Assembly (NCBI RefSeq): GCF_036634195.1
Contig: NZ_JAZIFY010000001.1
Location: 1,188,501-1,252,500 of the forward strand
Direction of reading: 5' to 3'
Origin: Streptomyces sp. P9-A4
GTDB lineage: Bacteria; Actinomycetota; Actinomycetes; Streptomycetales; Streptomycetaceae
Length of the DNA: 64,000 bases
The translations under genes and the position numbers were made by a program. Position 1 is the stretch's first letter; each line of letters begins with the position of its first letter. This document shows positions 8,149 through 50,361 of the stretch, piece by piece. Under the pieces are notes generated by a model. It saw only the letters and a program-made list of their open reading frames with translations. It made no database searches and had not been told where the DNA came from.

Positions 8149-9003
8149 TTACTTGACGGCGCCGAAGGCCGGGATGATCGAGCCCTTGTAGGTGTCCTCG
8201 ATGTACTTCTTCACCTCGGGCGAGTTGAGGAGCTTCGCGAGCTTCTGCACGCGGGCGTCCTTCTCGTTGCCCTCCTTGACGGCGAGGAAGTTGGCGTAGG
8301 GGTTGCCCTCGGCCTTCTCCAGGGCCAGCGCGTCCTTCGCCGGCTCAAGCTTGGCCTCGATGGCGAAGTTGCCGTTGATGACGGCGGCGTCCACGTCGTT
8401 CAGGGCGCGGGGCACGGTGGCGGCCTCCAGCTCCTTGAACTCCAGGCCCTTCTTGTCGGTGATGTCGGAGATCTTGGCGTTGGTGCCGACACCGGGCTTG
8501 ATCGTGATCAGGCCGTTGTCGGCGAGCAGCTGGAGGGCGCGGCCGCCGTTGGTGGTGTCGTTGGGGACGGCGATGGTCTGGCCCGCCTTGATGTCCTTCA
8601 GCGACTTGAGGTTCTTGGAGTAGAGGCCCAGCGGCTCCAGGTGGACGTTGACCACCGGGACGATGTGGGTGTTGTTCTTCTTGTTGAAGTCGTCGAGGTA
8701 CGGCTTGTGCTGGAAGAAGTTGGCGTCGACCTGGCCGGTCTCGGTGGCGGTGTTCGGCAGGATGTAGTCCGTGAACTCCTTCACCTCCAGCTTCAGGCCG
8801 GCCTTCTCGGCCAGGTTGTCCTTGACGTAGTTGAGGATGTCGGCGTGCGGCGTCGGGGACGCGGCGACGACGAGGGCCTTGTCGGCGTCTCCGGAGCCGG
8901 CCGCCTTGGAGGACGGGTCCGAGGAGGTGCCGCAGGCGGTGAGGCCGAGGGCGAGGGCGGCGGTGGCGGCGATGCCGGCGGTGAGCTTGATGTTCTTACG
9001 CAC
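8149..9003 (-). CDS. metQ: methionine ABC transporter substrate-binding lipoprotein MetQ
   Basis: A 284-residue NlpA/MetQ lipoprotein. The signal peptide ends in the lipobox LTAC (Cys24), so it is exported and lipid-anchored. The mature part shows the family pattern VVAASPTPHADILNYVKDNL, VDANFFQHKPYLD and VPNDTTNGGRALQLL. It captures L- or D-methionine and delivers it to the MetI permease. The GTG start at 9003 follows an AGAGG site. It is the last gene of the metN-metI-metQ operon, 92 bp after metI. Expression probably depends on the leader peptide at 11028-11114. Confidence 0.93.
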   Translation of the reverse strand: MRKNIKLTAGIAATAALALGLTACGTSSDPSSKAAGSGDADKALVVAASPTPHADILNYVKDNLAEKAGLKLEVKEFTDYILPNTATETGQVDANFFQHKPYLDDFNKKNNTHIVPVVNVHLEPLGLYSKNLKSLKDIKAGQTIAVPNDTTNGGRALQLLADNGLITIKPGVGTNAKISDITDKKGLEFKELEAATVPRALNDVDAAVINGNFAIEAKLEPAKDALALEKAEGNPYANFLAVKEGNEKDARVQKLAKLLNSPEVKKYIEDTYKGSIIPAFGAVK

Positions 9004-9095: not shown

Positions 9096-9764
9096 TTACG
9101 CGGTACGGCCCCGGCGGGCGAGGAGTCGTACGACCCCGTCGCCGATGAGCTGGACGACGGTCACGATCAGGACCAGCACGACCACGGTGACCAGCATGAA
9201 CGTGGTGTCGAAGCGCTGGTATCCGTAGGTGACGGCCTTGGATCCGAGGCCTTCGCCGCCGACCGCGCCGGCCATCGCCGAGTAGCCGATGAGGACGATG
9301 ACCGTGGTGGTGACGCCCGAGATCAGCGAAGGCAGGGCCTGCGGGAGCAGCACCTTGCGGACGATGGTGGGGATGCCGCCGCCCATGGCCTGGACGGCCT
9401 CGACGAGTCCGTGGTCGACCTCGCGGACCGAGGTCTCGACGAGCCGGGCGAAGAAGGGGATGGCGCCGATGGCGAGCGGCACGATCATCGCGGTCGGGCC
9501 GATGAAGGTGCCGACGACGAAGGTGGTGAAGGGGATCAGGGCGATCAGCAGGATGATGAAGGGCAGCGAACGCCCGACGTTCACGATCGCACCGACGATC
9601 TTGTTCACCGGCCGGTTCTGCAGCAGTCCGCCCTTGTCCGTGAGGACGAGGAGGATGCCGAGCGGCAGGCCGCCGAGCACGGTGACGACGGTGGCCCACA
9701 GGACCATGTAGAGCGTGTCGACGGTGCCCTGCTCCAGCAGGGGCTGCATCTCGGACCAGGTCAC
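9096..9764 (-). CDS. metI: methionine ABC transporter permease MetI
   Basis: A 222-residue polytopic membrane protein with about five transmembrane segments. The cytoplasmic ABC-interacting loop EAVQAMGGGIPTIVRKVLLP fits the EAA motif, and the length matches the family (about 220). It forms the homodimeric channel with MetN. Its ATG overlaps the metN stop by 4 nt (ATGA), so translation is coupled. Confidence 0.93.
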   Translation of the reverse strand: MTWSEMQPLLEQGTVDTLYMVLWATVVTVLGGLPLGILLVLTDKGGLLQNRPVNKIVGAIVNVGRSLPFIILLIALIPFTTFVVGTFIGPTAMIVPLAIGAIPFFARLVETSVREVDHGLVEAVQAMGGGIPTIVRKVLLPQALPSLISGVTTTVIVLIGYSAMAGAVGGEGLGSKAVTYGYQRFDTTFMLVTVVVLVLIVTVVQLIGDGVVRLLARRGRTA

Positions 9765-10816
9765 TTGGCACCTTCCTTCACCAGCACGGGCGCGGTGGCC
9801 GGCTCCTGCGATTCCTCTTCGACGACCTCGACCTGGAGGCCCTGCTCGCGCAGGAAGCCGACCGGGACGACGTTGTCCTCGTACCGTCCGGGCAGTTCGA
9901 TCCGCATCCGGCCGATCTGCTTGCCGCCGACGGTGTCCATCGCCGCCCCGAGGATCGAGATGTCGATGTTGTACGTGCGGGAGAGCTGCGAGATGACCGG
10001 CTGGGTCGCGGACTCACCGTGGAAGGTGACGTCGACGACGGTGCGGTCGGGGCCGGTGTGCGAGCCGCTGACCGGGAAGAGTTCGGCCGCCAGCTGGGAG
10101 CCGGGGGTGGCCAGCAGCTCGCCGACGGTGCCGGACTCGACGACGCGGCCGTGCTGCATCAGCGCGGCGGAGTCGCAGATGGTCTTCACGACGTCCATCT
10201 CGTGGGTGATGAGGAGGACGGTGAGGCCGAGCTGCTGGTTGAGGTCCCGCAGCAGCTGGAGGATGGAGCGGGTGGTCTCCGGGTCGAGGGCGCTGGTGGC
10301 CTCGTCGGAGAGCAGGACCCTGGGCTCGCCGGCGAGGGCGCGGGCGATGCCCACACGCTGCTTCTGGCCGCCGGAGAGCTGGCCGGGGTAGGACTTCGCC
10401 TTGTCGGCGAGGCCGACCAGGTCGAGGAGTTCGAGGGCCCGGCGGGAACGCTCGGCGCCGGAGACGCCGAGGATCTCCAGGGGAAGTTCGATGTTGTCCT
10501 TCACCGTGCGGGAGGACAGCAGGTTGAAGTGCTGGAAGACCATGCCGATGCTGCTGCGCGCCCGGCGCAGGTCCCGGCCCGCGCGGCGGCCCTTGCCGGC
10601 GAGGGCGGTGAGGTCGAGGCCGTCGACGGTCACCGTGCCGGAGGTGGGGCGCTCCAGGAGGTTGACGCAGCGGATGAGCGAGGACTTGCCGGCGCCGCTC
10701 TGGCCGATCACGCCGAAGACCTCGCCCTCGCGGACGTGGAGGTCGACGCCGTCCAGAGCGGTGACCTGCCGGCCGCGCGACTCATAGACCTTGGTCAGGC
10801 CCGAAGTGGTGATCAC
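9761..10816 (-). CDS. metN: methionine ABC transporter ATP-binding protein MetN
   Basis: A 351-residue ABC ATPase: Walker A GQSGAGKSS (38-46), signature LSGGQKQRVGIARAL, Walker B VLLSDEATSALDP, and a C-terminal NIL domain (about 265-345; YNIDISILGAAMDTVGGKQIG) that in MetN homologues binds methionine and inhibits transport from inside. First gene of metNIQ, starting at GTG 10816 (MITTSGLTK). It lies 211 bp downstream of a Cys/Met leader-peptide ORF, which suggests attenuation in response to sulfur amino acids. Confidence 0.95.
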   Translation of the reverse strand: MITTSGLTKVYESRGRQVTALDGVDLHVREGEVFGVIGQSGAGKSSLIRCVNLLERPTSGTVTVDGLDLTALAGKGRRAGRDLRRARSSIGMVFQHFNLLSSRTVKDNIELPLEILGVSGAERSRRALELLDLVGLADKAKSYPGQLSGGQKQRVGIARALAGEPRVLLSDEATSALDPETTRSILQLLRDLNQQLGLTVLLITHEMDVVKTICDSAALMQHGRVVESGTVGELLATPGSQLAAELFPVSGSHTGPDRTVVDVTFHGESATQPVISQLSRTYNIDISILGAAMDTVGGKQIGRMRIELPGRYEDNVVPVGFLREQGLQVEVVEEESQEPATAPVLVKEGAK

Positions 10817-11027
10817 AGGGGGTTTCCGTCACTGTCGAGTGCGCGACGCGGGGTCCGTCGTGCACGGGGCATTCGTCGATTCGGACAGTCAGGCGCACGG
10901 AAGCCGCTCCGGCGGGTGACCGGGGTTCGGCGGGGTGCGCGGGGCGGGCACGGTCCGTCGCCGGAAGGCGGGCGGATCGGCGCGGCCGTCGGTCTCGCTT
11001 CGGGGCGCGGGACTCAGGCGGGGGCCC
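10817..11027 (-). promoter_or_regulatory. putative attenuator region between leader peptide and metN
   Basis: 211 very GC-rich bases between the leader-peptide stop codon and the metN start. The octamer GACGGACC occurs twice on the minus strand, 100 bp apart (10952-10959 and 10852-10859). Several competing GC stems can be drawn, but I could not settle a single terminator/antiterminator pair by eye. Confidence 0.4.
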
Positions 11028-11114
11028 TCAGAAGGCGCACATTCGACACATACAACGAGCACCGGGCGTCGTGATCGCCTCGGTCGCAAGGGTGCGGCTG
11101 CTCGTCGTGGTCAT
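11028..11114 (-). CDS. Cys/Met-rich leader peptide of the metNIQ operon
   Basis: A 28-codon ORF starting at ATG 11114 and ending at TGA 11030-11028. The last eight residues are CMCRMCAF, so three Cys and two Met codons sit just before the stop; the first part is plain (MTTTSSRTLATEA). A -10-like TTTACT at 11127-11122 lies exactly 7 nt before the ATG, so the mRNA may begin at the start codon (leaderless). Known actinobacterial cysteine attenuators are short, often leaderless ORFs with Cys codons near the end: ribosome stalling when charged tRNA is scarce alters downstream RNA folding. The position fits that role for methionine uptake. Confidence 0.75.
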   Translation of the reverse strand: MTTTSSRTLATEAITTPGARCMCRMCAF

Positions 11115-11195
11115 GGGTGCAAGTAAACCATGCGCAGGTGCGAACGAAACGGGGCTGTCCGAATAGCGGACGTCGTTGAGACGTCATGCGGACAG
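11115..11195 (-). promoter_or_regulatory. promoter region of the met leader with dyad repeats
   Basis: Contains TTTACT (11127-11122) as a -10 candidate and a nested dyad: CTGTCCG (11155-11161) pairs with CGGACAG (11189-11195), enclosing smaller repeats GTCCG/CGGAC and ACGTC/GACGT. No clear -35 hexamer at 17 bp. The dyad could be an activator or repressor site. Confidence 0.4.
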
Positions 11196-11426
11196 CGTGG
11201 AGGCGGGGGTTCCGGTCCGCTTTCCCGGTGTGGCCTGCGGGGAAGGGGCCGGTGGATCGGGTGGCCCGCGGAGGTGCGAGGGGGCGGGTGCGGGGGCCGG
11301 TTGTGGCCAAGGCCACCTTCGGGGGCCAGGGGGCACCGGGGGGGCGGGGGTGGAGCGGCGGGAGCCGCGGGGGTGCGGCAGGGGGCGGGCGCATCCGGCC
11401 GTCCGGACCGTAATACCCTCGGGCGC

Positions 11427-50005: not shown

Positions 50006-50089
50006 GGATCCTCCTCGGTAGCACCACGCGACCGCCTGGCGGACGGACGCGCAACGTCTGTTTTCTGAGACCAACCGAGCCGGAGCATG

Positions 50090-50121
50090 AAAAAAGCCCC
50101 GGACGGGACACAGGCGGGGCT
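50090..50121 (-). terminator. intrinsic terminator in the infC leader (attenuator)
   Basis: On the minus strand AGCCCCG (50121-50115), a 13-nt loop, CGGGGCT (50101-50095), then six T. It lies 85 nt before the infC start, with the infC promoter further upstream. Intrinsic terminators with a T-run are otherwise absent from the window, so it probably controls read-through into infC-rpmI-rplT. Confidence 0.72.
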
Positions 50122-50361
50122 CCAAAGAAATACCGGAACACCACCACGGTCTACCGCGGGGCGCACATCGGGCGGCTCCAATCGTCCGTACGGAACGATG
50201 GGCGCCACCTGACCGGTGACCCGCCACCCGCGAGGGTGGTCAGGTGGGAGTACGGAGCCTCCACTTGTGGGCCGGGCACACAAGTGTCCGGCCGGTCATT
50301 ACACAAGGTTAGCAGGACCCGGCGGTCGGCGCTAACCGAGGACCGGCATATCGTATGAGGC

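Follow-up and report, generated by a model that had tools for sequence, protein, structure and literature searches.

The amino acid read by a leader-peptide attenuator is normally the one belonging to its own pathway. In the window, by which we mean the whole 64,000-nucleotide stretch of Streptomyces sp. P9-A4 DNA analyzed here, a small open reading frame (ORF) preceding the methionine importer operon metNIQ ends in a run of codons for both cysteine and methionine. This raises the question of whether a single leader peptide may read both sulfur amino acids, as a sequence-only reading of the locus had proposed.

The leader ORF upstream of metNIQ

The sequence-only reading described a 28-codon ORF ending in CMCRMCAF, 211 nt before metN. 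Coordinates, residues and distance are confirmed: the C-terminal tail is RCMCRMCAF, with three Cys and two Met within the final eight residues, and 211 nt separate the stop codon from the GTG start of metN at 10816 (Table 1). We shuffled the 450 nt preceding metN 1000 times, preserving dinucleotides. None of the shuffled sequences contained an ORF of at least 10 codons with five Cys plus Met (at least two Cys and one Met) within the final eight residues, and two of the 1000 reached three Cys plus Met. Elsewhere in the genome, the search for a second copy of the leader gave no hit better than E 0.058.

Table 1. Coordinates of the leader, its sequence and RNA features, and the metNIQ genes in the window.
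Feature	Position	Strand	Basis
Inverted repeat CGTCCGCTATTCGGACA (GTCC-N7-GGAC), possibly bound by a transcription factor	11156..11172	minus	179/189 Streptomyces genomes
-10 box TTTACT of predicted leaderless promoter, ending 7 nt before leader ATG	11122..11127	minus	184/189 genomes
Leader ORF (metL orthologue), 28 codons, MTTTSSRTLATEAITTPGARCMCRMCAF	11028..11114	minus	ORF listing, frame conservation, S. lividans metL
Predicted RNA three-way junction P1-P3 within ORF	11045..11112	minus	comparative pairing
Helices of the junction	P1: 11100-11112 with 11045-11060; P2: 11085-11096; P3: 11061-11084	minus	predicted
Candidate regulatory codon run R C M C R M C A F	11031..11057	minus	tail conservation in 189 genomes
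CGA-AUG codon pair	11040..11045	minus	in frame in 187/189 genomes
GGGC directly 3' of stop codon	11024..11027	minus	spacing conserved
Hairpin H1, CCCGC(GCCCCGAA)GCGAG, one C.A mismatch in this genome	10994..11011	minus	conserved loop
Hairpin P4, arms GUGC (10862-10865) and GCAC (10839-10842), just before metN ribosome-binding site	10839..10865	minus	compensatory change
Conserved TCGACAGTGACGGA, metN ribosome-binding zone	10825..10838	minus	exact in 139/189 genomes
metN, methionine importer ATPase	9761..10816	minus	Pfam ABC_tran and NIL
metI, permease	9096..9764	minus	Pfam BPD_transp_1
metQ, binding lipoprotein, approximate start	8149..8988	minus	Pfam Lipoprotein_9 on 8152-8988

For comparison within the genus, 199 Streptomyces genomes were searched and the regions upstream of metN were taken. 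Seven genomes had no metN match better than about 1e-58 and three had upstream sequence that was too short (G050; G008 and G073 gave no candidate), leaving 189 usable regions, all of which contain the leader ORF. The ORF is real and apparently translated, as judged from the behavior of its reading frame. With the ATG behind the -10 box as the start and CGAATG located upstream of GGG[CT] irrespective of frame, the two are separated by a multiple of three nucleotides in all of 184 genomes, a count that omits five genomes without the core described below (L233, L249, L256, L261 and L263). This holds over a range of 69 to 96 nt, 36 of the 184 deviating from the usual 69 nt, although the genomes are related and independent length changes are therefore fewer than 36. 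In contrast, no triplet rule holds between CGAATG and the H1 loop, the spacing leaving remainders of 0, 1 and 2 in 32, 35 and 116 of 183 genomes.

The ORF is probably leaderless, an arrangement that the sequence-only reading had raised as a possibility on the basis of a -10-like TTTACT 7 nt before the ATG. This box is indeed present, and in 184 of the 189 genomes it is found 6 or 7 nt ahead of the leader ATG; the start in this genome is a predicted one. In S. lividans, the transcription start of the orthologue metL is given as mapped and leaderless in the data of PMC8079986. Further upstream, the GTCC-N7-GGAC repeat has a median position of -57 relative to the leader ATG. Near-matches to the repeat examined in the window's own genome were, by eye, not obviously located at sulfur genes.

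The leader ORF itself is already published (metL, 2021), and what is new here is its comparative anatomy. More specifically, Table 4 of PMC8079986 includes metL (SLIV_29928), MSTTSDRTPATEATTTPGARCMCRRMCAF, upstream of metNIQ in S. lividans TK24, as a methionine leader peptide. It shares with the window leader its place, operon and a tail of the GARCMCR(R)MCAF type, and probably also the leaderless start; three of the genomes compared here (L195, L198 and L220) encode a peptide identical to it. The metL passages of that paper call its termination 'unclear', without a typical Rho-independent terminator, and name methionines and threonines, not cysteine; the cysteine side, a comparative analysis and the RNA core are not described in them. 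A literature search, mostly of open-access journals, recognised no other paper on this leader. The window leader has no Pfam family match, and an NCBIfam search at E up to 10 with this and four other metN leaders returned no family.

A leader of its own, MSGTGIALVSRRHVDLGRMSSAICPAR, precedes the probable cys operon of this genome (PF01507 matches), and this leader matches NCBIfam NF042934 (L396 and L400, G000:C1 about 6019890-6019943). The cut-off of this model is passed at six places in the genome, one of which (L402) precedes a gene that is rhodanese-like by eye. We take NF042934, NF042936 and NF042933 to stem from the work of Canestrari 2020.

Cysteine and methionine codons in the tail

The sequence-only reading hinged on whether relatives keep the Cys and Met codons. 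Cys is present in all 189 Streptomyces tails, two or more Cys in 185, and both Cys and Met in 188, the sole tail without Met (L261) having four Cys. The most constant feature of the tail is RM, found in 188 of 189 leaders. Among 150 distinct 28-codon leaders, Met 25 is nearly invariant (146), and the last Cys is replaced by Arg in 38. Before the tail, Cys is rare, at 1.1% of leader residues.

Arg codons are also abundant in the tail, and codon choice there is distinctive. Across the 189 leaders, tail Cys codons are TGT (388) and TGC (146) and tail Arg codons are CGT (174), CGA (187), CGC (129) and CGG (8), whereas the first 66 metN codons of the same genomes use TGT 2 and TGC 187 times for Cys, and CGA 53 and CGC 856 times for Arg. 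Because this choice differs from early metN, the tail is evidently held at the nucleotide level too. The CGA-AUG pair lies 12 nt from the ORF end in 184 of the 187 genomes that have it in frame, and 9 nt in the other three.

Reading of methionine alone, as metL is filed for S. lividans, would agree with the interpretation published in the metL entry of PMC8079986, with an operon that resembles a methionine importer by Pfam, and with the near invariance of Met 25. We nevertheless regard it as improbable, since Cys occurs in every tail despite its rarity before the tail, and is also found in leaders of another family, f17, albeit by a test requiring both Cys and Met.

This test was part of a search outside Streptomyces, where 83 genomes had a metN match and 40 upstream regions were fetched, comprising all 35 of family f17 and five of other families. 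An ORF with a Cys and Met cluster was found at shuffle p <=0.05 in 16 of the 35 f17 regions, about two being expected by chance; the remaining 19 had no significant ORF of this kind, nor did the four testable regions of other families, a fifth not being long enough. The test demands at least one Cys and at least one Met and is blind to leaders with Cys only. Several of the 16 ORFs are, by eye, unrelated in sequence. One type, VMCRGxRMCGxxRMCAMGGMPSMR, holds four to seven Met (L317, L318, L320, L321, L323 and L324). That unrelated f17 ORFs carry Cys together with Met argues that both amino acids matter. Effectively, the part of the sequence-only proposal that concerns the codons has stood, both types being kept in Streptomyces and in the 16 f17 regions, and by comparison the proposed reading of both Cys and Met is well supported.

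A second small ORF, itself conserved and ending in PYPPG or in LPFPPGTR plus up to two residues, was seen upstream of metN in 11 of 43 regions (L313, L314, L315, L317, L320, L323, L324, L331, L332, L343 and L046). PPG is a known stall motif. Three of these ORFs tried against NCBIfam gave no match, and in the 189 Streptomyces regions the motifs LLSHAP/HAPYP/APYPPG were found in none and LPFPPG/SHLP/THLP in one.

A different account is that of an attenuator of the mycobacterial type that reads Cys alone, in which Met codons would be bystanders kept by RNA structure and a stalled ribosome would unmask the metN ribosome-binding site. Leaderless ORFs with Cys codons regulate downstream genes in Mycobacterium smegmatis (Canestrari 2020, as described in PMC9031893), and the sections of PMC1262725 (Seliverstov 2005) on cysteine list candidate Cys leader peptides before cys operons, including those of Mycobacterium. 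The metN leader resembles the mycobacterial polycysteine ORFs in being short and probably leaderless, in having Cys codons near the stop and in preceding a sulfur-metabolism gene. It likewise shares with the Cys leaders, as these are presented in PMC1262725, the Cys codons near the stop and the absence of a visible terminator, for which Rho is suggested there. The two or more Cys of nearly all Streptomyces tails, the four Cys of L261 and the three f17 leaders whose tail has Cys without Met (L327, L330 and L335) also agree with this account. However, in the metN leader Met is about as constant as Cys and the RNA core is specific to metN, unlike in the mycobacterial ORFs. Moreover, the constancy of RM, the frequent replacement of the last Cys by Arg and the Met-rich f17 type all speak against it. 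Taken together with the pairing results below, we consider the account by Cys alone unlikely.

RNA structure within and beyond the ORF

In the predicted fold of the window leader, helix P1 of the three-way junction joins the 5' end of the mRNA to the codon run. Across 112 distinct 28-codon ORFs, 96.4% of the cells of P1-P3 are paired and 6 of 25 pairs show changes on both sides; none of 500 shuffles was as good on any of four measures, and in slid versions the share of paired cells is 21-42%. Double changes are more numerous in one of these versions (-2) than in P1-P3 (9 vs 6), so that the support for P1-P3 rests on the cells paired as well, and pair-breaking single changes also occur, for example in 19 of 150 at 10-60. 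The sequence-only reading had suggested folding as a check for alternative hairpins. Single-sequence folds are not exceptional, either for the window ORF (z -1.44, 15 of 200 shuffles as good) or for the full leader (z -1.09, 15 of 100), and it is the comparison of the 112 ORFs that reveals kept pairing. P1-type pairing reached shuffle p 0.05 in 7 of the 13 Streptomyces leaders tried and in 3 of another 9, and P1 was clear by eye in about half of 14 individually folded Streptomyces leaders. Global alignment and fold of whole leaders was too gappy, the fold of joined ends was weak, and the stretch from the codon run to H1 gave no convincing consensus fold.

The codon run and the sequence that follows it hold a core consisting of CGA-AUG, GGGC and, at a varying distance, hairpin H1. 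In 181 of 187 genomes, 12 or 13 nt separate CGAATG from GGG[CT], and the exact H1 loop is found in 183 of 189. Among the 187 genomes with in-frame CGAATG, 183 have both H1 and GGG[CT], three have neither and one has GGG[CT] only, a co-occurrence that is suggestive only, the sequences being related. H1 is absent from two Kitasatospora loci and from S. oceani.

A covariance model of the core, R1, rests on 23 sequences, part of which came from genomes that were then also among those searched. Among 394 genomes of the class, 47 had matches at E up to 0.01. The 42 matches at E 1.5e-9 or better, 39 in Streptomyces and three in family f17, are without exception located immediately before metN and on its strand (coordinates compared by hand); six weaker matches (E 2.8e-4 to 0.0099) are not at known metN places or are in a genome without a metN match. 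G497, the only Streptomyces among these genomes in which metN was not matched at the cut-off, had no R1 match. An Rfam covariance-model search over 10700-11300 at E up to 10 found no match. Elsewhere in the window, Rfam RF02830 (Scr1601 RNA) matches 50089-50300 on the minus strand. Two ideas on H1 were discarded. As a genome-wide motif, H1 had 11 near-matches besides the metN copy at two mismatches, compared to 7 for a reversed-pattern control; and the pairing of its loop with UUCGGG in early metN codons would call for TTCGGG, which is present in merely 20 of 189 genomes.

It could be argued that P1-P3, GGGC and H1 form a riboswitch-like or protein-bound element to which the ORF is secondary, given the conservation at synonymous positions, the compensatory changes and the nearly invariant H1 loop. 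We hold this to be highly improbable, for the frame is kept in all 184 genomes, the P1-P3 sequence is not common to the f17 leaders that have the core, and the search at E up to 10 returned no Rfam match.

Closer to metN, the arms of hairpin P4 pair in 165 of 175 genomes, 14 without the anchor being omitted, versus 24 of 175 when shuffled; the arms are GUGC/GCAC in 143 and the compensatory GUAC/GUAC in 14. A classical transcription attenuator has an intrinsic terminator with a U-tract, unlike the metN leader: none was found in 10780-11220, and the stretch from stop codon to metN contains TTTT in 10 and a T-rich stretch in 9 of 189 genomes. This stretch is 45% C and 29% G, with C above G in all 189 genomes. 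The same excess is seen in the first 200 nt of metN in all 189, and C excess alone is therefore weak evidence for Rho.

No support was obtained for direct pairing between the codon run and the metN ribosome-binding site. Pairing of UGUCGAAUGUGCGC with GCGCACUCGACAG is no better than in shuffles (median p 0.24, 63 of 189 genomes), matched and mismatched partners average -23.7 and -23.6 kcal/mol, both sides being too conserved for covariation, and p is >=0.1 in nine other leaders (five f17, two Kitasatospora, Actinomadura and S. oceani). At least some genomes, among the rows listed, alter one side of the pairing but not the other. The mean unpaired probability of the metN Shine-Dalgarno sequence (ACGGA) in 43 genomes is about 0.4 whether computed locally, in the full leader or without the leader ORF, a value that does not speak for or against sequestration. 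For the account by Cys alone, the pairing with the ribosome-binding site is unsupported. The LEU element before leuA of Actinobacteria, as outlined in PMC1262725, is similar in that its codon run lies inside a conserved RNA structure; the difference is that pairing between this run and the Shine-Dalgarno box of leuA is described there. In its treatment of actinobacterial methionine operons, PMC1262725 reports no conserved RNA structure upstream, unlike the metN leader here.

Proposed mechanism and significance

A mark of ribosome-mediated attenuators is the translation of an ORF whose codons are cognate to the pathway, and on comparative evidence the metN leader has such an ORF. We conclude that the leader is very likely an attenuator, and we favor, as the probable reading of these comparisons, a leaderless leader peptide that attenuates metNIQ by ribosome position and reads both Cys and Met. 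A lack of charged Cys- or Met-tRNA would make the ribosome pause within the codon run, with CGA-AUG as the most consistent site, thereby keeping P1-P3 open and freeing GGGC to contact the H1 loop (GCCC). With a good supply, the ribosome would reach the stop codon, cover GGGC and leave, and metNIQ expression would fall, either via Rho acting in the C-rich untranslated leader or via RNA that limits metN translation. Because Cys can be derived from Met in actinomycetes, a lack of Cys would create a demand for Met import. Counting against this model, a shortage of Met should also slow initiation, and Arg codons abound in the tail as well.

A more specific version is a ruler, in which a ribosome at CGA-AUG, 12-13 nt before GGGC, would allow the contact between GGGC and the H1 loop and a ribosome at the stop codon would not, one peptide thereby reading both sulfur amino acids including the methionine needed for initiation. 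We offer this version tentatively and consider it doubtful.

Physiology in other Streptomyces has been described in part. In the oxidative-stress data of PMC4991794, metN, metI and metQ of S. coelicolor rise 5.2-, 3.5- and 2.3-fold alongside Cys-biosynthesis genes, a co-induction that fits a link to Cys. The same source attributes the metNIQ stress response to HbpS-SenS-SenR and places a predicted SenR site 31 nt upstream of metN, so the leader need not be involved. In the expression data of PMC5702194, the metNIQ operon of S. clavuligerus is among the most up-regulated genes after megaplasmid loss.

If the dual reading is true, one ribosome sensor would join two linked amino-acid pools, and methionine would be readable even though initiation also uses it. 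The RNA core specific to metN, without a match in Rfam, offers a candidate switch that can be tested in a genus used for making antibiotics.
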